NCBI GenBank assembly: GCA_029253965.1
Contig: JAQWYM010000012.1
Span: 1-39,520 of the forward strand
DNA length: 39,520 nucleotides
From: Gammaproteobacteria bacterium
GTDB taxonomy: Bacteria; Pseudomonadota; Gammaproteobacteria; UBA4575
Reading direction: 5' to 3'
The first letter of the stretch is position 1, and each line of letters opens with the position of its first letter. The notes beneath the pieces are model-generated. The model was not told the origin of the DNA. It saw only the letters and a program-made list of their open reading frames with translations, and made no database searches. This document shows positions 11,012-34,026 of this stretch, piece by piece. Made by a program: the position numbers and the translations under genes.

Positions 11012-12199
11012 CTAATAATGATGTGCTAATCGTAGGACGATAAAATCATCATCCTGAAAAGCCCTGCTGGTCGCATTGGCGCTGCTATTGATAAACAGCT
11101 GCGCCTCCAGTTCAAGCTTGAGCTGACTACCAAGCCTGCGTTCAGCTTCAAGCCGCAGGCTACTAGAGCCATCATCCAAGTCTCTCATTAGACCCAGCAG
11201 CAGCGCACTGTCTTGAAAATCATTGAGGCTATAACGCAGACCGAGAAAAATGTCGTTATCCTGATGACTGCGTGGCGCTTCTTCTAGGTCACGGCCATCG
11301 TATAAGTGTTCAATTAAAAATCCAAGATCTGCATTGCTAGCAAGCCATTGAAACCAGCTGTACTCTAGGCCGATAACACTCGCAAGAAATGTATGCCCCT
11401 GCCCCTCACGCAGTAAACCTTCAAACTTCCAGAGCCATTGCTGATCAGTGTACTGCAGATCAACAGCCAGTTGTTTAATTTGATCATAGTGGGCAATTAA
11501 GTGCGCCTGACTGCTGTTAATAACGAGCATTGGGGCGCGACTGGTGCCATCAAAATAGCTCAGCCCCAGATCCCAGTCGCCTATATAGTGGGCGTAACGT
11601 AAAGCAAAGTCAGGATGCCATTGTTTAGCATTTGATTGATATTTTGTGCTGTTTTTATCAACAACTGCAGCACCACGCAGCCGACCCTCAGCACCGCTAA
11701 AGGTCCTCTCTCTAAACAGTGGCATCAGGTAAAAAGAAAAACGACCGTAGTCTTTCTGCAGTGAAAGGTTAAACATTAGCTGCCCCAGATAATCCTCACC
11801 ATCTAGGCTCTCAACCGCATCTATCTGGTTAATCACATTGACCAGATGGCGTGACTCAGTCACTCCCCAAAACTCTCTATTAAACCCGGCTAGTAACTCC
11901 CACTCATCAGCCATATAAAGCCAGTAGGCCTCGCGGATATCAGCATGGGTTCTATTCTGATCGCGCGTATCCAGCCGAATAAAAGGCACAAAGCTCAGCT
12001 GTGTGTGAGCGCTTGGCATAAAACTCCATTCAGCCTCAACAAATGCTGAGGTTTGTAGTGCATTTAGCTGTTCTGCATATTGCGCCTGCTTCAAAAACAA
12101 GCGCGACTCAATCCCAAGCTCACCCGAAAACTCAGCCTTTGCCGTTAGAGTCAGTAACAGTGCAAGTGATAGATAACTGAGTAACGTCTTAGCGCGCAC
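11012..12199 (-). CDS. Predicted outer-membrane beta-barrel protein, third gene of an MMPL/LolA-like operon
   Basis: I cannot name a family with certainty. The 395 residues begin with a clear signal peptide (MRAKTLLSY, hydrophobic core, AKA before EFSGELG). Short alternating hydrophobic/polar segments rich in Tyr, Trp and Phe follow (for example FSFYLMPLF, WLWKFEGLL, IFLGLRYSL). The protein ends in IVLRLAHHY with a terminal aromatic residue, as barrels recognised by BamA do. It has few cysteines and no catalytic motif. The first 11 bases overlap the end of the LolA-like gene, so the two are probably translationally coupled. By inference it is the outer-membrane component of the three-gene system, acting as acceptor, pore or insertion site for whatever the other two move. 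Confidence 0.75.
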   Translation of the reverse strand: MRAKTLLSYLSLALLLTLTAKAEFSGELGIESRLFLKQAQYAEQLNALQTSAFVEAEWSFMPSAHTQLSFVPFIRLDTRDQNRTHADIREAYWLYMADEWELLAGFNREFWGVTESRHLVNVINQIDAVESLDGEDYLGQLMFNLSLQKDYGRFSFYLMPLFRERTFSGAEGRLRGAAVVDKNSTKYQSNAKQWHPDFALRYAHYIGDWDLGLSYFDGTSRAPMLVINSSQAHLIAHYDQIKQLAVDLQYTDQQWLWKFEGLLREGQGHTFLASVIGLEYSWFQWLASNADLGFLIEHLYDGRDLEEAPRSHQDNDIFLGLRYSLNDFQDSALLLGLMRDLDDGSSSLRLEAERRLGSQLKLELEAQLFINSSANATSRAFQDDDFIVLRLAHHY

Positions 12200-12992
12200 G
12201 CTTCAAGACACCCTTCACAAAGTCATTCGCTGTTAAGCCTGTTTTAAACTCATAGTTAGAGTAAAGCAGATCTGTATTTTTTTCTGTCTGATGATTGTGC
12301 ATCAACAAACGTTTCGCACGCCAATAACCGTCATTAAATTTTTCGTAATCTTCAAATTTCAGAGTCTTTAATAAGGTGTTTTTACGATCGTAGAATTCCA
12401 ATTTACGCATCTGATAAACCGCTTGATCAAGCCAAGCAATCTGTCGTGTATAACCTGAGTTTTCGTAACGTGGCTGACGTTCAATGACGTCACAGATAAA
12501 CTCAGCACATGGCTCAGTACGCAGCCATTTATGCGTGTACTTATTTAATTCATTAGCGGTGAAATCTTCAAACGCAAATTCTGAACCTACAAATGGCCCC
12601 GATTTATTACTTGATGAGATACGTTTAACTCTTTTCAGAGCCGGTAAATAAAGCCACTGATCATCCGCTTCAAGAATTTTTGCAAAGGAGAGTAATGCGG
12701 TGCCTTTTATATCTCTTGGACTGGAGAAGATAATTAAGCTTTTGTCACCACTGTCTTCATTCATTACTTCTAAGGTGCGAATCTCTAACTGACGTTTTGA
12801 CTCAGCACCAGCAGCATTCCTTAACACCATAGTGATACTCGCTGTGCTGTCTGAAAACCCCTGATCACTGTGATCACTTCTTTTTGCTATGTCATAGCCT
12901 TTAGTCTCCACCTCTGCTGCTGAAACAGAGCACAGAAATAGATACATAAGTGCCGCTATAGACAGCCTATTACGAGTTAAATGTGTTCTCAT
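12189..12992 (-). CDS. LolA-like outer membrane lipoprotein-sorting family protein (periplasmic)
   Basis: This is a predicted secreted protein with the LolA/LolB-type half-barrel fold, of the group annotated as 'outer membrane lipoprotein-sorting protein' and distinct from LolA itself. Hallmarks are IIFSSPRDIKGTALLSF, WLYLPALKRVKRIS, and SSNKSGPFVGSEFAFED. I choose the ATG at 12992 (267 residues). It lies 10 bp after the permease stop, has a GGAACTAAG-type ribosome binding site, and puts a normal signal peptide (about residues 1-26, ending VSAAE) at the N-terminus. The frame remains open to 13043, inside the permease gene. The fold binds lipid acyl chains in characterised relatives, so a role as a periplasmic lipid or lipoprotein carrier between the permease and the barrel protein is a reasonable inference. 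Confidence 0.82.
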   Translation of the reverse strand: MRTHLTRNRLSIAALMYLFLCSVSAAEVETKGYDIAKRSDHSDQGFSDSTASITMVLRNAAGAESKRQLEIRTLEVMNEDSGDKSLIIFSSPRDIKGTALLSFAKILEADDQWLYLPALKRVKRISSSNKSGPFVGSEFAFEDFTANELNKYTHKWLRTEPCAEFICDVIERQPRYENSGYTRQIAWLDQAVYQMRKLEFYDRKNTLLKTLKFEDYEKFNDGYWRAKRLLMHNHQTEKNTDLLYSNYEFKTGLTANDFVKGVLKRAR

Positions 12993-13002
12993 TCTTAGTT
13001 CC

Positions 13003-15342
13003 TTATGCAGTGGAATGTTGTTTCGTTTTTTTATCAAGTACACATAAAATAGCGGGTAACATGAGGAAGTCGAGCACCAGGGCTACGACAACAACTAGGG
13101 CTGTGAGCATGCCTGTTTCTTGGTTAATCTTGAATGAAGATAAGGCTAGGACACTAAATCCAATCGCGATAATAATCGTATTCATCGTAATGGCCTTACC
13201 TACTGTCTTTAATGCATAGCGAATAGACTCTTCAGCACTTAAGTTTTTCTCACGCCGACCACGCAGATATTTAGTTAATAGATGCACTGTGTCATCGACG
13301 ACAATGCCCAGCGACATCACAGTAACAATAGCAACCGGTAAGCCCACCTGACCAACAGCCAAGGCCCAGATCCCCAAGGTCACGAGAACGGGGGTTGCAT
13401 TGGGAATAATACTTAGCACCCCTAAGCGAAAACTGCGCAGAATGATAATCAAAACTAAAGCAATCAAAGTCACCGCGACGACATTACCAGTGAGCATGCT
13501 TTCAATATTTCTCTTTGCAATATAGGAGAACATCTGTGTCGCACCAGTGGCTTTACCCCACATGTATTCAGGTGCATTTTGTTCTAACCATTGACGTGAA
13601 TCAGCAATGAATTCACGTGTTTGCACCGTGTCTACATCACCAAGAGTGGCTGTGACCCGAGAGGAAGACTTATCAATACTGACACGATCATTCATATCCA
13701 AGCCATAAGGCAGTGATAACTCATAGAGAAGCAAATATTGTGCTGAAAGTTCTCTCTCTTCAGGCAGACGGTAATAGGCCTCATTATCAGCATGCATATT
13801 TTTATTTAAGCGCTTCATGATATCGCTCAATGAATAGACATGTTCTACATAGGGGTGGCTTCGAAGCCAGAGCACGAAATCATCTAATGTCTGCAAATAT
13901 TCAGGATCACTAATACCCTCTGCAGCCTTCGCACTAATTGAAAACTCTACGGGATAAAAGGCACCCAGATGTTTTATAGCAAAGTCAGTATCGGTACGAA
14001 ACTGAATGGATTCATCAAAATATTTAGTCCAGACATCATTTAATTGATTAGTAAAAGCTAACGTAGAAAAAAGTGTTATCAAGAGTGCAAAACTGATGAG
14101 AATCTTCTTTGGCCTAGCAAAGACAAAGTCGGCTAGATAATCAAAGAACTGTGGACCTTGTGTTTGCTTTGAGAGCAAGGCCACCTTCACTGGCAAGATA
14201 CTAATTAGAGCAGGCAATAAAGTAATCGATAATAACCAAGCTGCAGCAATACCAAAGGCGGTCATATTACCAAGATGATGAAAAGGCGGTGAATCAGAAA
14301 AATTCAGCGCCATAAAACCAATAATAGTGGTAATGCTGGTAACCATAACAGCAGTAAAGTTAATTCTTACTGATTCCACTAAGGCTTGGTTCTTGGTTAC
14401 TCCCTTAGCCATCAGCTCGCGCATTGTGACCAGTATGTGAATGCTATCAGCAATCGCTAGGGTCAGCACAATAGTCGGCGCAGACAGCGATATAGGCGTC
14501 ATCAGCACCTGCATCAAACCACCAGCTCCCAAGGTAATTAAAGATGAGAAGACGATAAGAATAAACGTTGCTAAGGTCGCAGTCACTGAACGTAACATGA
14601 AGAATGTAATCAACATCAACACGCCATACATTAATGGAGTGAGGCTGCTCATATCTTTAATGCTCGCTTCGGTAAACGCCATATTGAGCATGGCTGTACC
14701 GGTAAGCACCATTTTTATCTGTGGATAATCTGCTTGCAGAGAAAGCAACATTTGTCGCGCATAAGCGACCGACTCAGGGCCTTCTGAAAGCGCCTTACCC
14801 GGATATTGCAGGGTCACATTAACGGCTGTGGTATCGCTTTCAGGTGAGATTAAAAAATTATTCAGCAATGGCTCTTGCAGTGCATTATTAACTGCCTGAG
14901 CAAGTAAGGAAGGGTTCATGCTGACCCCGTCTTTAATCAAATCAGCCACTACCAGTTCATCCTCACTGGCTATCGTATGTTGGAAATTAGTAATGGAATC
15001 GACTCGAGTCGCGAAGGGGATCTGCCAAGCCTCTTCAGTAATGCGTTCAAGCAAACCAGCGATTTCATTATCAATACTTCTACCGTCTTCAGCTCGTATA
15101 ACAATAAGTAAGTTGTCATTCTTAGTATAGGTTTGCTGAAATTTTTCAAATGCAACCAGATCAGGATTTTGTCCAGAAAAGAATACACGGTAATCAGTGG
15201 CAAAATTGAGGAACCTCGCGTTGCTAGCAATAAGGGCTGTAATGACTATGCTTAAAGCGATCACCCACCAGCGACGACGGATAACCCATGTGCATAGGGC
15301 AACTGAAAATTGATCAATGAATCCGGTATTTTTGGGCGACAT
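13003..15342 (-). CDS. MMPL/RND-superfamily permease (sterol-sensing-like)
   Basis: This is an inner-membrane RND-superfamily transporter of 779 residues. That is shorter than AcrB-type pumps and in the range of MMPL/HpnN-like lipid exporters. Each half has one membrane helix, a periplasmic domain, then five helices: TM1 about 25-42, periplasmic 45-230, TM2-6 about 235-385, TM7 about 413-431, periplasmic to about 640, and TM8-12 to the end. Charged residues likely to couple proton flow lie in TM4 (D299 in LAIADSIHI) and in the second half near 683 (GIVVDDTVHLL). No membrane-fusion adaptor gene is near. GAGG lies just upstream of the ATG. It leads the operon with the LolA-like and barrel genes. 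By inference it energises extraction or export of a lipid or lipoprotein. Confidence 0.87.
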   Translation of the reverse strand: MSPKNTGFIDQFSVALCTWVIRRRWWVIALSIVITALIASNARFLNFATDYRVFFSGQNPDLVAFEKFQQTYTKNDNLLIVIRAEDGRSIDNEIAGLLERITEEAWQIPFATRVDSITNFQHTIASEDELVVADLIKDGVSMNPSLLAQAVNNALQEPLLNNFLISPESDTTAVNVTLQYPGKALSEGPESVAYARQMLLSLQADYPQIKMVLTGTAMLNMAFTEASIKDMSSLTPLMYGVLMLITFFMLRSVTATLATFILIVFSSLITLGAGGLMQVLMTPISLSAPTIVLTLAIADSIHILVTMRELMAKGVTKNQALVESVRINFTAVMVTSITTIIGFMALNFSDSPPFHHLGNMTAFGIAAAWLLSITLLPALISILPVKVALLSKQTQGPQFFDYLADFVFARPKKILISFALLITLFSTLAFTNQLNDVWTKYFDESIQFRTDTDFAIKHLGAFYPVEFSISAKAAEGISDPEYLQTLDDFVLWLRSHPYVEHVYSLSDIMKRLNKNMHADNEAYYRLPEERELSAQYLLLYELSLPYGLDMNDRVSIDKSSSRVTATLGDVDTVQTREFIADSRQWLEQNAPEYMWGKATGATQMFSYIAKRNIESMLTGNVVAVTLIALVLIIILRSFRLGVLSIIPNATPVLVTLGIWALAVGQVGLPVAIVTVMSLGIVVDDTVHLLTKYLRGRREKNLSAEESIRYALKTVGKAITMNTIIIAIGFSVLALSSFKINQETGMLTALVVVVALVLDFLMLPAILCVLDKKTKQHSTA

Positions 15343-15410
15343 GAAACCTCAAACAAGCATGTTAGTGTGTATGTTGATGTAACCAGAACTAAGGTATCAA
15401 TGAAATCTTA

Positions 15411-15511
15411 CCTAGTCACTGAGAGAAATCAAACGACAAATGTACTGTTATTTAACCATTCCTAATGACTCTAGGTGTTGCCCTGATCCTGGAACTCTAC
15501 CCTAGTCACTG
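15411..15511. repeat. 11-bp direct repeat spaced 90 bp, second copy over the VOC gene stop codon
   Basis: CCTAGTCACTG occurs at 15411-15421 and again at 15501-15511. The second copy includes the TAG stop of the VOC gene. The region between the VOC gene and the permease start (15343-15501) otherwise shows no gene and no terminator that I can support. It may be a small duplication scar or chance. Confidence 0.35.
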
Positions 15512-21332: not shown

Positions 21333-23869
<2,537 letters not shown>

Positions 23870-26300: not shown

Positions 26301-26328
26301 AGTATAACAATAGGAGGTGGTTTAATAA
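26301..26328 (-). promoter_or_regulatory. Possible sigma70-type promoter for accA
   Basis: On the minus strand, TATACT (26306-26301) is a good -10. TTATTA (26328-26323) lies 16 bp upstream as a weak -35 that overlaps the dnaE stop codon. It would let accA be transcribed apart from rnhB-dnaE. It is supported by sequence match only. Confidence 0.3.
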
Positions 26329-29300
26329 CGGACTTTTATAGCGCTGACACCTTCCAAATTATACAGGCGTCGTAGTAACTCTTGCTCTGGGATCACCTTC
26401 CACTGCTCACCAAGGCGTAAATTACCCTGTTCAGTCAGGGTCTGGTAATGGATTTCCATGTGACATTGGCCACCGCAGTATTGTTGCAGTGTCGCCATGA
26501 GGTCCTTGGCCAGAGCGCTTTTTTGTTGCGCTGTAACACTACCATCGACCTCGATGATAAGACTACGGGCTTTTTCAACCCGCATCTCCTCCAAGGCAAC
26601 AATCTCGTTTGCACGTAAACGTGGCTGACTATTGAATTCATCAATACTCAAGCTGCCTTCAATGATCAGAATGCGGTCTTTCACTAAAAGATGCTTAAAG
26701 CGACTATAGGCATCGGTAAACACAGCGATATCCAAGCGTGCCGTGTTGTCATCAATCGTCAAAAATGCGATGCGGCCGGATGGACTATTACGTAGACGCA
26801 TATGCATCAATAAGCCCGCAACTTTAATCGTGTTTTTATTGCGATTTCGATAATCTACCTCAGGCACAGGCATAGCCAGGCGCTGACTCAAGTTTTTACC
26901 CACCAGACTATTTAACTCTTGCCGGTATTGATCAACGGGATGTCCCGTTAGGTAAAGCCCTAGGGTCTCTCGCTCAGCAGCCAGCTTGGCATCCATGTCC
27001 CATTCAGGCTTCTGTTCTAGGAGTGCTTCTTTGGCCATGACCTGACCACCGCCAAACAAATCATTTTGCCCCGTGTCATTATTTTTTTGCTGTTGATCAG
27101 CCAGTTGCACAGCCTTTGGCAGGGCATGCATCAAGGTTGCACGATTTTGCATAAAGACATCGGCAGCACCCGATCGGATCATCGCCTCTAAGCTACGGCG
27201 ATTAAACTTTTGCAGGTCTAAGCGAATACAGAGGTCACCCAGCGTTTTATAGGGGCCACTGGCACGCTCTTGCACCAGTGATTCTACTGCGGCCTCACCG
27301 ACACCTTTAATGGCACCAAGGCCATAGACCACTTGATGCTCTTCGGTCACGGTAAAGGCATAGTACGAACTGTTTAAATCGGGTGGCATAACTTCCAGCC
27401 CCATGCTGCGACATTCATCAATCAGGTTGACCACCTTATCGGTGTTATCCATATCAGCCGATAAGACTGAAGCCATAAATTCTGCTGGATAGTGTGCCTT
27501 CAACCACGCTGTTTGATAAGCCAACAAGGCATAGGCGACAGAGTGAGACTTGTTAAAACCATAGCCAGCAAACTTTTCCATGAGATCAAAAATAAAGTTG
27601 GCTTGATCTTTATCAACACCACGCTTGGTCGAGCCTTCGACAAAAACACTCCGTTGCTTGGCCATTTCAGAGGCCTTTTTCTTACCCATGGCTCGACGTA
27701 GCAAGTCGGCACCACCGAGTGTGTAGCCAGCTAAAACCTGTGCGATTTGCATCACTTGCTCTTGATACAAGATGACACCATAGGTTTGATTTAGAATTGG
27801 CTCCAAATCAGGGTGTGGGTACTCAATCGCAGCGCCGTGCTTACGATCAATGAAGTCATCAACCATACCTGACTGCAGTGGACCCGGACGATAAAGAGCA
27901 ACCATGGCAACGACGTCATCAAACTTATCTGGTTTCAAACGCCCTAGAATATCTTTGATACCTGAGGACTCCAGCTGAAACACGGCGGTTGTCTGCTGGT
28001 CTTGTAACAGCTGATAACTGGCATCATCATCTAGTGAAATCTGATTAAGCTCTAACGGTTCGGCATTTTCTTTCTTGCGTCGACGATTCACCGACTTCAC
28101 CGTGCCATCAATAATCGTCAAGGTTCTTAGACCTAAGAAATCAAACTTAACCAGACCAATGGCTTCAACATCATCCTTGTCCAGCTGGGTGACGATATTG
28201 GCACCACTCGCCTCACAATATAAAGGCGTAAAGTCAGTCAGCTTAGAGGGTGCAATAACAACACCACCGGCATGCTTACCGGCATTTCTTGCAATACCTT
28301 CCAACTGCAAAGCCATATCGATCAGGCCACGCACGTCTTCTTCTTCATCGTATAAGGCTTGAAAATCTTTCTCTTGGCTCAAGGCTTTTTTCAGTGTCAT
28401 GCCAATTTCAAAAGGCACCATCTTTGCGATACGATCAACAAAACCGTAGGAGTGCCCTAAGACACGCCCCACATCTCGCACCACGGCCTTCGCCGCCATC
28501 GTGCCATAGGTGATTATCTGGCTGACCTTTTCACGGCCATAGCGTTGTGCGACATAATCAATCACGCGATCTCGACCCGCCATACAGAAGTCGATATCAA
28601 AATCTGGCATCGAGACCCGCTCAGGATTCAAAAAGCGCTCAAAAAGCAGGTCATAGCGTAGTGGGTCAATATCGGTGATACCGAGGACATACGCGACTAG
28701 AGAACCGGCACCTGAGCCACGTCCCGGCCCGACTGGGACATCATTCTCACGCGCCCAGCGAGTAAAGTCAGAGACGATAAGAAAGTAGCCGGCATAGCCC
28801 ATACGTTGAATAACATCCAACTCTATTTCTAATCGTTTATGGTAATCAGATAATGGCAACATTTCGGTTGCTATACCGCCGGCATCTAAACGCTTCTGCA
28901 AGCCTATATCGGATTGCTGTCGGAGATATTCATCGGTGGATACTGCATCAGGAATTGGGAATTCTGGTAGGACATTATTTCCAAATTCAAGTGTGACGTT
29001 GCAGCGTTTGGCGATTTCTACGGTATTTTGTAATGCCGATGGCACATCACTAAAAAGCTGCAGCATCTCTGCTGTCGAGCGCAGATATTGCTGTTCGCTA
29101 TAGGCATGCGTACGCCTAGGATCAGAGAGGACACGGCTTTGATTAATACAGACACGCACCTCATGCGCATCGAATTCTTCTGTGCTAATAAAACGCACGT
29201 CATTAGTCGCAACCACAGGCATATTATGAGCCTTGGCTAAGGCTATGGCTCGCTGGTTGTAGATCTCTTCTTTGTCTCGGCCAGTGCGTTGCAACTCGAT

Positions 29301-29795
29301 ATAGAAACGATCCTTAAAGACCTTGGCGCAGTCATTCAGGTAAGTCTCAGCAAGCTCTTGCTTGTCTTTAAGCAGTAATTGCCCAAGCTCACCCGCCAGA
29401 CCACCCGATATCGCAATCAGGCCTTCTGCATGTTCAGTGACCCATTCCTGATCAACACAGGCCAGACCACTCTGCTGGCCATGAGTGTAAGCCTTGGTGA
29501 TCAGTTCAGTAATATTGCGGTAGCCAACATTATTCATGCACAGCAGTGTCAGGCGCGAGTTTTCACGTTGCTTAGCATGGCGCACATAAAAATCAGCACC
29601 AATGATTGGTTTCACACCACGCGCAAGCGCCGAACGGTAAAACTTCACCAGTGCAAACAGATTAGTTTGATCGGTTAGCGCCACTGCCGGCATCGCATCG
29701 GCAACGACTTTTTCAAGTAGTGTCGGAATGCGCACGATGCCATCAACGATGGAATATTCGCTATGCACTCGCAGATGAATGAAACGGCTACTCAT
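26322..29795 (-). CDS. dnaE: DNA polymerase III alpha subunit
   Basis: DnaE is the replicative polymerase (C-family). The 1157 residues show an N-terminal PHP domain (FIHLRVHSEYSIVDG, about 5-19, and on to about 270). The catalytic aspartates are D398 and D400 (PDFDIDFC) and D552 (KFDFLGL), each three below the E. coli numbers. Also visible are the GPGRGSGAGSLVAY block, the tandem helix-hairpin-helix region (YGLGAIKGVGEAAV), a clamp-binding motif QNDLF at 910-914, and an OB-fold (about 980-1060). The ATG overlaps the rnhB stop by 4 bp, so the two are coupled. The length is typical of DnaE1. Confidence 0.98.
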   Translation of the reverse strand: MSSRFIHLRVHSEYSIVDGIVRIPTLLEKVVADAMPAVALTDQTNLFALVKFYRSALARGVKPIIGADFYVRHAKQRENSRLTLLCMNNVGYRNITELITKAYTHGQQSGLACVDQEWVTEHAEGLIAISGGLAGELGQLLLKDKQELAETYLNDCAKVFKDRFYIELQRTGRDKEEIYNQRAIALAKAHNMPVVATNDVRFISTEEFDAHEVRVCINQSRVLSDPRRTHAYSEQQYLRSTAEMLQLFSDVPSALQNTVEIAKRCNVTLEFGNNVLPEFPIPDAVSTDEYLRQQSDIGLQKRLDAGGIATEMLPLSDYHKRLEIELDVIQRMGYAGYFLIVSDFTRWARENDVPVGPGRGSGAGSLVAYVLGITDIDPLRYDLLFERFLNPERVSMPDFDIDFCMAGRDRVIDYVAQRYGREKVSQIITYGTMAAKAVVRDVGRVLGHSYGFVDRIAKMVPFEIGMTLKKALSQEKDFQALYDEEEDVRGLIDMALQLEGIARNAGKHAGGVVIAPSKLTDFTPLYCEASGANIVTQLDKDDVEAIGLVKFDFLGLRTLTIIDGTVKSVNRRRKKENAEPLELNQISLDDDASYQLLQDQQTTAVFQLESSGIKDILGRLKPDKFDDVVAMVALYRPGPLQSGMVDDFIDRKHGAAIEYPHPDLEPILNQTYGVILYQEQVMQIAQVLAGYTLGGADLLRRAMGKKKASEMAKQRSVFVEGSTKRGVDKDQANFIFDLMEKFAGYGFNKSHSVAYALLAYQTAWLKAHYPAEFMASVLSADMDNTDKVVNLIDECRSMGLEVMPPDLNSSYYAFTVTEEHQVVYGLGAIKGVGEAAVESLVQERASGPYKTLGDLCIRLDLQKFNRRSLEAMIRSGAADVFMQNRATLMHALPKAVQLADQQQKNNDTGQNDLFGGGQVMAKEALLEQKPEWDMDAKLAAERETLGLYLTGHPVDQYRQELNSLVGKNLSQRLAMPVPEVDYRNRNKNTIKVAGLLMHMRLRNSPSGRIAFLTIDDNTARLDIAVFTDAYSRFKHLLVKDRILIIEGSLSIDEFNSQPRLRANEIVALEEMRVEKARSLIIEVDGSVTAQQKSALAKDLMATLQQYCGGQCHMEIHYQTLTEQGNLRLGEQWKVIPEQELLRRLYNLEGVSAIKVRY

Positions 29796-30451
29796 GCGAT
29801 CTGGTCGGTATGTTTACTGTGCAAACACTCACGGACCGGACGAAAGCTAGTGCGGTGATGGCTACAAGGTCCATGTTGTTTGAGTGCACTGAGGTGATTA
29901 GCGCTTGGATAGCCTTTATGTTGAGCAAAGCCATACAGTGGAAAGTCTAAATGAAGATCACGCATTTCTTGATCACGCGCCACTTTAGCAATAATAGATG
30001 CGGCTGCAATAGCTTTAACGCGCTGATCACCTTTCACTACTGCGTAGGATAGAACGTCAAATTCAGGACTGAAGTTACCGTCAACCAAAACCAGTTCAGC
30101 CTTACAATCAAGCCCAGAAAAGGCCCGCTGCATAGCCAGCAAACTAGCATTCAAGATATTCAAATCATCAATTTCAGCCACTTCAGCGCGGCCTATAGAC
30201 CAAGCTAGCGCGTGACTTTTGATATAGGTGGATAAGGTTTCTCGCTTACTCTCGCTGATTTTTTTTGAATCATTCACCTCAGACCAGTCAGAGCCATCAC
30301 CTAAAATAACGGCGGCTGCAATAACCGGACCTGCGAGTGGACCACGCCCTGCTTCGTCTATACCAGCACAGGCGAGTAAGGAGACCTCAAGGTCTTCAGG
30401 GTCAATCTGCTTGTTATGTCGTAGCATCACTAATATAGGCTGTGGCTTCAT
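29792..30451 (-). CDS. rnhB: Ribonuclease HII
   Basis: RNase HII cuts RNA in RNA-DNA hybrids and starts removal of single ribonucleotides from DNA. The 219 residues contain CAGIDEAGRGPLAGPV with the catalytic Asp-Glu pair, the substrate-sensing GRG, VLVDG (third Asp), KGDQRVKAIAAASIIAKVARD (fourth Asp) and the YGFAQHKGYPSANHL C-terminus. A short N-terminal extension of about 28 residues precedes the core. A second ATG at 30427 is possible, but the first has the better upstream purines. It starts after a 203 bp non-coding gap, where lpxA and lpxB are found in most relatives. Confidence 0.95.
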   Translation of the reverse strand: MKPQPILVMLRHNKQIDPEDLEVSLLACAGIDEAGRGPLAGPVIAAAVILGDGSDWSEVNDSKKISESKRETLSTYIKSHALAWSIGRAEVAEIDDLNILNASLLAMQRAFSGLDCKAELVLVDGNFSPEFDVLSYAVVKGDQRVKAIAAASIIAKVARDQEMRDLHLDFPLYGFAQHKGYPSANHLSALKQHGPCSHHRTSFRPVRECLHSKHTDQIA

Positions 30452-30654
30452 GCCGTTCTTGTCAGATTGGAATAGCTTTTTTATAACATAGATTGGCCGT
30501 TGTTATGATAGTAATTCGACGTCAGCGTAGATAATAATGGCCTGTTTTACCATGACGTTATAGCGAGAGTTGGCTTGGCCCGCGGTTGCAGCCAAGGAGT
30601 TTCCTATTGCCTACCAGACTTAGCTACCGAGTACGCTTGAACTAGAGGACTGAG
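30452..30654. other. Non-coding gap between fabZ and rnhB (usual position of lpxA-lpxB)
   Basis: I see no open frame of note and no recognisable LpxA hexapeptide repeat or LpxB residue block in any frame. The gap holds one inverted repeat, CTTGGC (30574-30579) with GCCAAG (30591-30596), whose 11-base loop contains the palindrome CCGCGG. No T-tract follows on either strand. AT-rich stretches upstream of rnhB (around 30478-30490, minus strand TTATAA) could hold a promoter, but I cannot identify a -35 element. Confidence 0.5.
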
Positions 30655-31104
30655 TTAGTCGTCTAGCTCTTTAAACATACACTTCAGCTGCCCACTGGCG
30701 GCTAATTCATCATCAACATAGGCTGAACATTCAAACAGGCCTAGATTTCGCTTCATTCGTGAGATACGAGACTTGAGAATAAGCTGATCTCCTGGCACCA
30801 CGGGGCGCTTAAAACGGACATCATCGACACCGACAAAAAGAAATAAACTCTTTTTTTCAGGTCGTAAGGCAGGATCACTCAAAACCAGCACACCAGAGGC
30901 CTGAGCTAAGGCTTCAAGGATTAAGACACCAGGAAAAACTGGCGTACTAGGAAAATGTCCCGTGAAAAATGGCTCATTAATGCTGACATTCTTCTTTGCA
31001 ATAATCGAGTCACCATGATTACACTCGATAACACTGTCCAATAAGAGAAATGGATAACGGTGCGGTAGACAATCCATTATCTCTTGAACTGACATTGCAC
31101 TCAT
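30655..31104 (-). CDS. fabZ: 3-hydroxyacyl-[acyl-carrier-protein] dehydratase FabZ
   Basis: FabZ dehydrates 3-hydroxyacyl-ACP in fatty acid elongation. The 149 residues form a single hot-dog domain with LPHRYPFLLLDSV (14-26), catalytic H50 in FFTGHFPSTPVFPG, and catalytic E64 in LILEALAQASG. The DDVRFKRPVVPGDQL block is also present. FabZ is told from FabA by length and by these motifs. AGGGG lies eight bases before the ATG. Unlike the usual lpxD-fabZ-lpxA-lpxB arrangement, it stands between non-coding gaps on both sides, with a terminator and a possible promoter upstream, so it is likely its own transcription unit. Confidence 0.96.
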   Translation of the reverse strand: MSAMSVQEIMDCLPHRYPFLLLDSVIECNHGDSIIAKKNVSINEPFFTGHFPSTPVFPGVLILEALAQASGVLVLSDPALRPEKKSLFLFVGVDDVRFKRPVVPGDQLILKSRISRMKRNLGLFECSAYVDDELAASGQLKCMFKELDD

Positions 31105-31143
31105 TCTTTGCCCCTAGCAAGTACGACCCGTTTACTTTTATTA

Positions 31144-31172
31144 CTCATAATCAAACCTATCTGTACTTACAA
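31144..31172 (-). promoter_or_regulatory. Possible sigma70-type promoter for fabZ
   Basis: On the minus strand TTGTAA (31172-31167) and TATGAG (31149-31144) are separated by exactly 17 bp, each matching four of six consensus bases. It lies directly after the skp terminator and about 40 bp before the fabZ start. This is the natural place for a new promoter once the terminator isolates fabZ. It is based on motif match only. Confidence 0.4.
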
Positions 31173-31207
31173 AAAAGCGGCCTGACAGCATAAATCCGTC
31201 ACGCCAC
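31171..31207 (-). terminator. Intrinsic terminator after skp
   Basis: In the minus-strand transcript GTGGCGTGAC (31207-31198) pairs with GTCAGGCCGC (31186-31177): nine of ten positions pair, one as G-U, with a single G-G mismatch. An 11-base loop separates the arms, and the stem is followed at once by six U residues (31176-31171). It lies 21 bp past the skp stop and should end the pyrH-to-skp transcript before fabZ. A second inverted repeat, GCAATAAG/CTTATTGC (31214-31221 and 31227-31234), spans the skp stop codon itself but has no U-tract. Confidence 0.65.
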
Positions 31208-31227
31208 CATATAGCAATAAGAGTTGC

Positions 31228-31731
31228 TTATTGCGAGCTTAACTTCTCTAGCACTCTTGCGGTGATATCAATACTTGGACTTGCGTACAAGACTGGCTGT
31301 GTCAGCACCAAATCATAAGATTCTTTAGTCGCAATCTGCTGAATTACTTCGTATACCTTCTTCTGCAACACACCTAATTCTTCGTTACGGCGAATATTGA
31401 AGTCTTCACGCATTTCGTCACGCATGCGATTGAAGTCACGCTTTTGACTCAAGACATCACGCTCTAACTTAACGCGATTGCTTTCACTCATGATACTGCC
31501 ATCATTATTGAGTTTTTCTTCCAGCTTGAGAACTGCTTCACGTGCCGCAGTCAATCCCTTATCGCGAGCTGCAAATTCCTTCTCTAGCGACGAGCGTGCA
31601 GCACCAGCCTGCGGTGATTTCTCCATAATCTCACCAATATTAACAAAGCCTAGTTTTGGCTCTGCCAATGCGGTGCCCGCAACCATAAGTGTTGCAGCAA
31701 GGAAAGTACTGACGATTTTCTTGGTATTCAA
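31228..31731 (-). CDS. skp: Periplasmic chaperone Skp (OmpH family)
   Basis: Skp is a trimeric periplasmic chaperone that carries unfolded outer-membrane proteins to the BAM complex. The 167 residues start with a signal peptide (MNTKKIVSTFLAATLMVAG, cleavage after ALA). The beta-strand core LGFVNIGEIMEKSPQA follows, then two long charged amphipathic helices (about 45-125, rich in Lys, Arg and Glu) that form the tentacles, and the C-terminal strand YDLVLTQPVLYASPSIDIT. It follows bamA by 15 bp, the conserved order. A terminator lies just downstream. Confidence 0.94.
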   Translation of the reverse strand: MNTKKIVSTFLAATLMVAGTALAEPKLGFVNIGEIMEKSPQAGAARSSLEKEFAARDKGLTAAREAVLKLEEKLNNDGSIMSESNRVKLERDVLSQKRDFNRMRDEMREDFNIRRNEELGVLQKKVYEVIQQIATKESYDLVLTQPVLYASPSIDITARVLEKLSSQ

Positions 31732-31746
31732 TTTTATGCTCCTGCT

Positions 31747-34026
31747 TTAAAAGCTTGTGCCAAATTCAAACTGAAATGATTCAGTTTTGTCATTTTCTTC
31801 ATCGTTATATGCGCTTGAGAAGGACAGTGAAATCCCACCCAAACCTGTAATCATATTAAGTTCCATGCCATAACTACCGCGTAGTTCACTGATCTTAAAT
31901 TCTTCGACTTCTTCGTATACGTTACCAATATCTGTAAACACTCCCAAACGGAAACTTTTTGAGTCTGCCAATGCAGGAACTGGAAAGAAAACTTCGAGTC
32001 CAGCTGTTGTTTTAAGATTACCACCAAAGGCTCGATCTGCAGAGTCTCTGGGCCCTAAACTATTCGCCTTATAACCACGTACTGATGACGAACCACCCGC
32101 ACGGTATTTTTCAAAGAACGGTAAATCTGTGGTCGAACCATAAGCGTCACCATAGCCGATATTTGAACGCGCTGAGATAGTAAATATATCCGTTAGAGGG
32201 TAAAGAAATATATTCTTATAATCTAGCTTATAGTATTCAACATCACTATACGGTACCGATAATTCTACACCTCCTCGCTGATAAAAGCCTTCTGTACCAA
32301 AAACACGTCTATTTCGTGAATCGTGGCTGAGGTAAGAGCTTATACTCAGATTAATGAAATCACTGCCATTATCTTTAAGGAACTCATCGATCTCATCAGA
32401 AGCATCCGAACCCTTGGTAATCTTAGTTTTACGTAACTCTACAGTAGCACCGATACGATCCTCTTCTGTCAGTGGAATACCGTAGTTCGTACGCATACTA
32501 ATCTGATCAGAGTTGTAATCTGAAATATCCGCTTCTTTTGCATCTGTCGAAATGTAGCTAAAACCATAGCCGCGATTAACACCGTCAATCGTGTAATACG
32601 GATCATTATAGCTCACGTCATAAACCGTATTGACCTTACTAGTATTAATACTGAATGCAACAGACTTACCCGTACCTAAGAAGTTTTCTTGAGAAAGACT
32701 CGTGGTAATCACCGCGCCCTGACTATCAGAAAGACCGGCACCAATAGTAAAACTACCTGCTAATCGCTCAGCCACCGTCATGTTAATATCGACCATGTCA
32801 TCAGCACCAGGGATACGGATGGTCTCAAACTCGACTGACTCGACAAAAGCTAAGCGCTGAACTCTACGTCTAGAGGCTTCAATGCCTGTCTGTGAGAACC
32901 AACCGCCTTCCATCTGGCGAAGCTCACGGCGATAGACTTCATCGCGACTGTAATCATTTCCTGTGATATTTATTCTACGCACATAGACGCGCTTACCGGG
33001 ATCGATAAAGAAGGTTAGAACAACTGTCTTATCTTCCTCATTTACATCAGGCACTGGATTGACGCGGGCAAAAGCATAACCATCTTCACTGAGACGATTC
33101 TTAATCGCTTCTGCTGAGGCCACTACCTCTGCGCGCGAGAAAAACTGTTCTGTTGTTGCCAGCAACTTGCTTTCAAGCTCTTCTTTTGCAACAACAAAAG
33201 TACCCGCCAGCTTAATTTCTTTAATTTTATACTGATCACCCTCATCAACATTAACGGTGATGAAAATATCTTTTTTATCCTGTGAAATAGAAACCTGTGT
33301 CGAGGCTACGTTAAAATTTAGATAGCCTGTATTCAGATATTTAGAACGAAGCTTTTCAAGGTCTGCCTGAAGGCGTTGCTTCGAGTATTTCTCGTTATCA
33401 GATAATGGTTTCCACCAGGGTTTGATTCCCGACTCAAAAGATTCTTTAAGTTCTTTATCTTCATAGACCTGATTACCAATAATATTGACACCGCGAATCT
33501 CAGCGGCCTCACCTTCTGAAATCTGTATCTCGATATCAACCCGATTACGACTTAGTTCCGTCATCTCCGTTTTCATCTGCACACTGTATTTACCGCGTGA
33601 AAAGTATTGCTGCAGCAGCTCATTCTCTAAGCGTCCGAGTACTGAACGATTCAAAACTCGACCTGGTGCAATACCAATATCAGCCAGACTTTCAATCAGT
33701 TGCTCATCCGCAATATCTTTATTACCGACAATCTTCAGACTAGCGATACCCGGTCGCTCTTCAAGTACAACAATCAGAACATCACCGTCCTGACCCAAAC
33801 TAATGTCATTGAACAGCTCAGTTTTATACAATTCTTTAATAACTATTGCCGAATCGGCATTGGAGAACGTGTCACCGACTTTAACGGGTAAATAGGTGAA
33901 AACAGTTCCTGGGGAGATCCTTTCAAGACCCTGTAGAACGATGTCGCGAACCTTAAAAGACTCCGCTTGCGCTACTCCGAATATAAGCAGACAGGCCAAG
34001 CTGGCTTTGATAATGGTTTTGATCAC
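31747..34026 (-). CDS. bamA: Outer membrane protein assembly factor BamA
   Basis: BamA is the essential Omp85 insertase of the outer membrane. The 759 residues show a signal peptide (to about AQA21), five POTRA domains (about 22-90, 91-170, 173-262, 264-342, 345-420) and a 16-strand barrel. The barrel has the conserved loop 6 motif SSVRGYKANSLGPRD and a C-terminal strand ending in FQFEFGTSF with terminal Phe. It is somewhat shorter than E. coli BamA, mainly in surface loops. It lies between rseP and skp, the conserved order. I searched the 47 bp upstream and did not find a convincing sigmaE promoter. Confidence 0.96.
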   Translation of the reverse strand: MIKTIIKASLACLLIFGVAQAESFKVRDIVLQGLERISPGTVFTYLPVKVGDTFSNADSAIVIKELYKTELFNDISLGQDGDVLIVVLEERPGIASLKIVGNKDIADEQLIESLADIGIAPGRVLNRSVLGRLENELLQQYFSRGKYSVQMKTEMTELSRNRVDIEIQISEGEAAEIRGVNIIGNQVYEDKELKESFESGIKPWWKPLSDNEKYSKQRLQADLEKLRSKYLNTGYLNFNVASTQVSISQDKKDIFITVNVDEGDQYKIKEIKLAGTFVVAKEELESKLLATTEQFFSRAEVVASAEAIKNRLSEDGYAFARVNPVPDVNEEDKTVVLTFFIDPGKRVYVRRINITGNDYSRDEVYRRELRQMEGGWFSQTGIEASRRRVQRLAFVESVEFETIRIPGADDMVDINMTVAERLAGSFTIGAGLSDSQGAVITTSLSQENFLGTGKSVAFSINTSKVNTVYDVSYNDPYYTIDGVNRGYGFSYISTDAKEADISDYNSDQISMRTNYGIPLTEEDRIGATVELRKTKITKGSDASDEIDEFLKDNGSDFINLSISSYLSHDSRNRRVFGTEGFYQRGGVELSVPYSDVEYYKLDYKNIFLYPLTDIFTISARSNIGYGDAYGSTTDLPFFEKYRAGGSSSVRGYKANSLGPRDSADRAFGGNLKTTAGLEVFFPVPALADSKSFRLGVFTDIGNVYEEVEEFKISELRGSYGMELNMITGLGGISLSFSSAYNDEENDKTESFQFEFGTSF

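Follow-up and report, generated by a model that had tools for sequence, protein, structure and literature searches.

The AmeABCD system of Castellaniella defragrans comprises an HAE3-type RND protein, a periplasmic protein of the LolA superfamily, and a DUF1302 outer membrane protein that are encoded together and act on hydrophobic substrates (PMC6394551). Deletion of this system was found to lower the tolerance for monoterpenes and to increase the accumulation of Nile Red (PMC6394551). The same three kinds of part are present among the P. putida proteins PP_0765 (DUF1302), PP_0766 (DUF1329), PP_2018, and PP_2019, which have a fitness phenotype on Tween 20 in common and for which contacts of the carrier with both the permease and the barrel were predicted with AlphaFold (PMC10866462). 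In Thalassolituus oleivorans, TOL_3187 is a fusion of MMPL and LolA-like domains that is followed by TOL_3188, a predicted porin without a conserved domain; on n-C28, TOL_3187 was up 42-fold, and TOL_3188 appeared only there (PMC6304351). A more distant likeness is seen in the iron-regulated PG1175-81 operon of P. gingivalis, where a "lipoprotein-sorting protein" is encoded beside an MMPL transporter, but this operon also contains genes for ABC transport and for a TetR regulator, and no barrel of the family described here has been reported from it (PMC10434189).

In this report, we describe a three-gene operon in a 39,520-nucleotide stretch of gammaproteobacterial DNA (the window; GCA_029253965.1, contig JAQWYM010000012.1). 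The operon is a three-component variant of the poorly characterized kind of system represented by AmeABCD, by PP_0765/0766/2018/2019, and apparently by TOL_3187/3188. The initial annotation had called it uncharacterized, which is no longer appropriate since related four-part systems have been described, one of them with a deletion phenotype (PMC6394551, PMC10866462). What is annotated piecemeal as a "drug exporter", a "lipoprotein-sorting protein", and an unannotated porin is one conserved system, and the separate annotations are misleading.

The Operon and Its Three Proteins

The operon consists of three minus-strand genes (15342-11012) that encode a permease, a LolA-like carrier, and a barrel. 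The permease gene ends with its stop at 13003, 10 bp from the carrier ATG at 12992, and the carrier and barrel genes have a spacing of -11 bp (an 11-bp overlap). A simple promoter scan of the 159-bp leader gap upstream of the operon (15343..15501, minus strand) revealed no promoter-like site. Neither a regulator gene adjoining the operon nor catabolic genes beside it were found in the window, and no adaptor (MFP) or TolC-type gene is annotated in the operon or its flanking genes. An aryl polyene cluster was considered as the genomic context and rejected, as no such genes surround the operon.

The permease (13003..15342, minus strand) was assigned from PF03176 and a structural model as an MMPL/HAE3-type RND protein of 779 amino acids with 12 transmembrane helices and two periplasmic loops. 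The match to PF03176 (149 bits) is well over the Pfam cutoff, 12 hydrophobic segments are recognized in the sequence, and the confident model (pLDDT 89.5) has MmpL4/5, MmpL3, NPC1L1, and HpnN as its closest folds in a structure search. The best NCBIfam match is TIGR00921 (HAE3), with an E value of 6e-53 and 180 bits, below the cutoff of 351.9; together with PF03176, this match places the permease in the HAE3-type group to which the permeases of AmeABCD-type systems belong. HpnN, BstA, and MmpL3/4/5 share the RND fold and have lipid-type substrates, but their partners are different or absent, and the permease is far under the curated cutoffs of the equivalogs for the hopanoid transporter HpnN (62.7 bits versus 1100 for NF052374 and 126.8 versus 751.85 for TIGR03480) and of the BstA sterol transporter equivalog (29.4 bits versus 1400; NCBIfam). 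Asp683, in the TM10 motif GIVVDDTVH (13294..13296, minus strand), is the same residue in 62/62 aligned permeases, and its counterpart in TM4, Asp299 (14446-14448, minus strand), is an aspartate in 52 of the 62. By analogy with the RND/MmpL mechanism, Asp683 is a candidate proton-relay residue.

The LolA-like periplasmic carrier (267 amino acids; 12189..12992, minus strand) matches PF17131 (LolA_like, 201 bits; Pfam) and DUF1329 (30.8 bits versus a cutoff of 23.1), as do all 36 of its aligned relatives. It thus belongs to the LolA-superfamily/DUF1329 proteins that are found in AmeABCD-type systems. The N-terminus, read by eye, resembles a signal peptide that ends with SVSA-AE and has no lipobox. 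The ATG at 12992 is taken as the start, a longer version from the GTG at 13043 being less likely. The most conserved block in alignment A3 is ADDQWLYLPALKRVKRI (residues 109-125; 12618..12668, minus strand).

The PDB relatives of the carrier are 3bk5 (E 1e-73), 9tp6, 4z48, and 3buu. Of these, 9tp6 is LolA3 from P. gingivalis, which matches with an E value of 5e-32, lacks the arginine and leucine hallmarks of LolA and LolB, and binds LolB only weakly; its authors have proposed a separate function for it (PMC13103446). Because of these properties of LolA3, a role of the carrier as a lipoprotein chaperone is unlikely, and the lipoprotein pathway suggested in the initial annotation is disfavored. 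A second Lol route, in which the permease would stand in for LolCDE and the barrel would be the lipoprotein acceptor, is suggested by the name of PF17131, "outer membrane lipoprotein-sorting protein", but we regard it as highly improbable, given the LolA3 results and a permease that is of the RND rather than the ABC type. We know of no RND/MMPL protein that extracts lipoproteins. At another locus (L134:2221-4896, minus strand), the domains read by eye are two resembling response-regulator receivers and a TM segment, followed by a LolA-like domain. This response-regulator fusion was rejected as a family member, being a distant protein without a permease or barrel of the operon family.

The third gene (11012..12199, minus strand) has a GTG start and encodes an outer-membrane beta-barrel of 395 amino acids. 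The model (pLDDT 91.3, pTM 0.86) is porin-like, with approximately 18 strands, and AlgE gave the top query TM-scores (0.55-0.58) among the matches listed. The N-terminus is signal-like, and the C-terminal residue is a tyrosine, in a column that holds phenylalanine in at least 90% of the relatives. No family in Pfam or NCBIfam was matched by the window barrel, and PDB sequence searches with either the barrel or its profile returned no match. DUF1302 was weakly matched by 16 of 58 barrel relatives and not directly by the window barrel itself. The barrel profile matched a set of DUF1302-matching barrels (A5) with an E value of 1.4e-17 and the common motif WG..S...N, and several members of this set have an adjoining LolA-like gene; the comparison with full-length DUF1302 proteins (A4) gave E 0.022, which is not a clear match. 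Judged from these profile comparisons, the barrel appears to be a divergent DUF1302 relative that is reached through intermediates. The barrel motif FWGVTESRHLVNVINQ (residues 110-125; 11825..11872, minus strand) lies in a strandless segment after a short strand in the alignment and model, and its counterpart in the DUF1302-matching set is VVWGKSD..RVVD..NP. We infer that this segment sits inside the barrel as a plug.

The coordinates, family matches, and models agree with the initial annotation of three minus-strand genes at 10 and -11 bp spacing, without an adaptor or TolC gene, for a 12-helix RND-superfamily permease, a secreted LolA-like protein, and a secreted barrel-like protein with a terminal aromatic residue. 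The strand count, put forward there as a check on the barrel, is the value of approximately 18 given above.

Comparison with Described Systems

Because the profile of the barrel matches the DUF1302-matching barrels, the permease, carrier, and barrel appear from sequence to correspond to AmeD, AmeB, and AmeA and to PP_2019, PP_0766, and PP_0765, respectively, with no equivalent of AmeC or PP_2018. The AmeABCD system differs in this fourth part (AmeC, COG4447), in its full DUF1329 carrier of 451 amino acids, and in its barrel of 605 amino acids (PMC6394551). An AmeC-like fourth gene was not found in the window operon, nor was a recurrent one found in 80 neighborhoods. The P. putida system differs in that its genes are at two loci, a fourth protein (PP_2018) takes part, and the trait affected is growth on Tween 20 (PMC10866462). 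By the domain description in the paper, TOL_3187/3188 is apparently a fused member of the operon family; it differs in this fusion, and a role in the transport of long-chain alkanes was proposed by its authors (PMC6304351). A literature search that combined the name of the carrier with alkane found no paper.

Conservation and Distribution

The three genes were sought in 274 genomes of the same class. The carrier was found in 93, the barrel in 97, and the permease in 96 of these genomes; all three were present in 92, one or two in 7, and none in 175, so that 99 genomes hold at least one. The pairwise co-occurrence has Fisher P values of approximately 1e-65 to 1e-70 when shared ancestry is ignored. 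At the 107 places with a carrier of at least 40% identity, the permease adjoins the carrier in 82, the barrel in 85, and both in 70, and all 70 have the order permease-carrier-barrel. Most of the remaining places have one partner adjacent or are in fragmented assemblies. The arrangement of the trio is far beyond chance, and the co-occurrence of the neighborhood, which had been proposed as a check, is thereby borne out.

Among the fetched loci, 70 of 109 have both neighbors, and several others are cut by a contig edge. A permease is present with no barrel recognized nearby at 13 of the 109, some of them at contig ends, and variants in gene order and with a single inserted gene were also found. 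For loci without a recognized permease, substitution of the RND protein by an ABC-type permease was considered and rejected, since the neighbors that were read are TetR or unrelated genes. Tandem permease genes precede the carrier at L078:2306-7001 and L085:2301-6953 (Cycloclasticus and a Methylococcaceae bin, respectively).

The operon is also found in Alphaproteobacteria, Nitrospirota, Verrucomicrobiota, Acidobacteriota, and Hydrogenedentota. Non-proteobacterial rows lie among proteobacterial ones in the carrier gene trees, which is no proof of transfer. Mirror-tree correlations among the three proteins are 0.86-0.90 for 46 operons, with shuffles giving no more than 0.21. The permease and carrier are fused in two genomes, G104 (1069 amino acids) and G011 (964 amino acids), with a domain composition that resembles that of TOL_3187. 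The G104 fusion retains all helices and has a hydrophobic segment before the carrier; the G011 fusion, in which TM12 and the signal peptide of the carrier are missing, may be decaying. Given the usual RND topology, the carrier part of both fusions would be periplasmic.

TetR-family genes in three clusters, with representatives confirmed by Pfam, occur near 27 of 80 loci, and such recurrent regulators beside the operon are a pattern that is usual for inducible efflux. Genes for PF09995 rubber-oxygenase-like proteins and amine-oxidase-like flavoproteins join the operon in Nitrospirota and some Gammaproteobacteria. At L114:5486-6871, L099, and L101, the flavoprotein gene lies between those of the permease and carrier, and the PF09995 oxygenase gene is upstream of the permease. 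The TetR, oxygenase, and oxidase neighbors fit an inducible handling of lipophiles without naming a lipophile.

Proposed Function

The operon is real and conserved, and its three products make up an envelope transport unit. Gene order is conserved, the three genes co-occur almost perfectly and are inherited together, two genomes carry fusions, and a fold class is assigned to each part; on these grounds, we consider it likely that the trio is one trans-envelope system that exports hydrophobic or amphiphilic small molecules, a reading in which the direction of transport and the substrate are inferred. The RND permease, presumably proton-driven, would power export from the inner membrane side of the route, the carrier would take the substrate into its hydrophobic groove and ferry it, and the DUF1302-type barrel would receive the substrate from the carrier and release it outward. 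Export would thus proceed by a shuttle in place of an adaptor/TolC tunnel. The trans-envelope route of the initial annotation therefore stands as a hydrophobic, three-compartment RND route, in agreement with the trio, fusions, folds, and related systems, but its lipoprotein and lipopolysaccharide connections do not.

The growth data from the related systems can be read in the opposite direction, and the Tween 20 and n-C28 results, which fit uptake equally well, are a point against export. Hydrocarbons or acyl esters from the environment would then enter through the barrel and be ferried inward by the carrier, and the permease would import them or load them into the inner membrane. An uptake model was proposed for TOL_3187/3188 from the induction on n-C28 (PMC6304351), and PP_0765/0766 are required for growth on Tween 20 (PMC10866462). 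We nevertheless think uptake unlikely, since the AmeABCD deletion strain accumulated more Nile Red (PMC6394551). In addition, the recurrent TetR genes fit efflux, and the window operon has no adjoining catabolic genes. The characterized RND proteins of the branch to which the permease belongs export their substrates or use proton antiport.

Within the export reading, a tentative and more specific proposal is that approximately one-third of the class genomes sampled here carry out RND-driven export of a specific self-made lipophile through a LolA-fold shuttle to a DUF1302-type barrel. If this is true, the operon would be a general Gram-negative counterpart of MmpL-type lipid export. The cultivable genera with the operon include Vibrio and Amphritea, and thus the substrate and direction are open to direct test.

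The Operon and the Absence of LPS Genes

The fold relatives HpnN, MmpL3, and NPC1 move membrane lipids, and the trio might bring a structural lipid made by the cell to the outer membrane, which could include compensation for absent LPS. The lpx genes noted as missing in the initial annotation were not recovered here either. The bamA-skp-fabZ-rnhB-dnaE block has no lpxD, lpxA, or lpxB in the window genome or in a second genome of the genus (G002), and lpxC and lpxB have no match in any genome of the genus (three genomes, with a completeness of 83, 91, and 77%). In every other family member searched, lpxC and lpxB were matched; in G004, the gap between rnhB and fabZ holds four further genes and an LpxB match.

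The link that had been drawn from this loss to the operon fails, because the operon is absent from the sister genomes that lack lpxC and lpxB. The valS and VOC genes are 32 bp apart in G002 and adjacent in G001, with no operon at the syntenic place, and a search of both genomes with the carrier gave no match. Relatives that bear LpxC retain the operon. Because a UBA1858-type genome from the neighboring genus (G017) has the operon between flanking genes shared with the window, loss from both sister genomes is likely, and a separate gain is less so. The sister genomes are thus a natural deletion of the operon that argues against LPS replacement, and 175 of the 274 genomes of the class hold none of the three genes. 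Delivery of a structural lipid is accordingly judged quite improbable. Export of a toxic or secreted lipophile, such as a hydrocarbon, terpenoid, or fatty-acid derivative, is more likely than that of a structural envelope lipid because close relatives manage without the operon.

From the window (26322-34026) and genomes G000, G001, and G002, the genus seems to have lost the synthesis of lipid A. LptD is nevertheless found in 3/3 genomes of the genus and LptF/LptG in two. The gene for Kdo-8-phosphate synthase, kdsA, has been kept (21333-22169; 449 bits to NF003543) and is 93% identical in G002.
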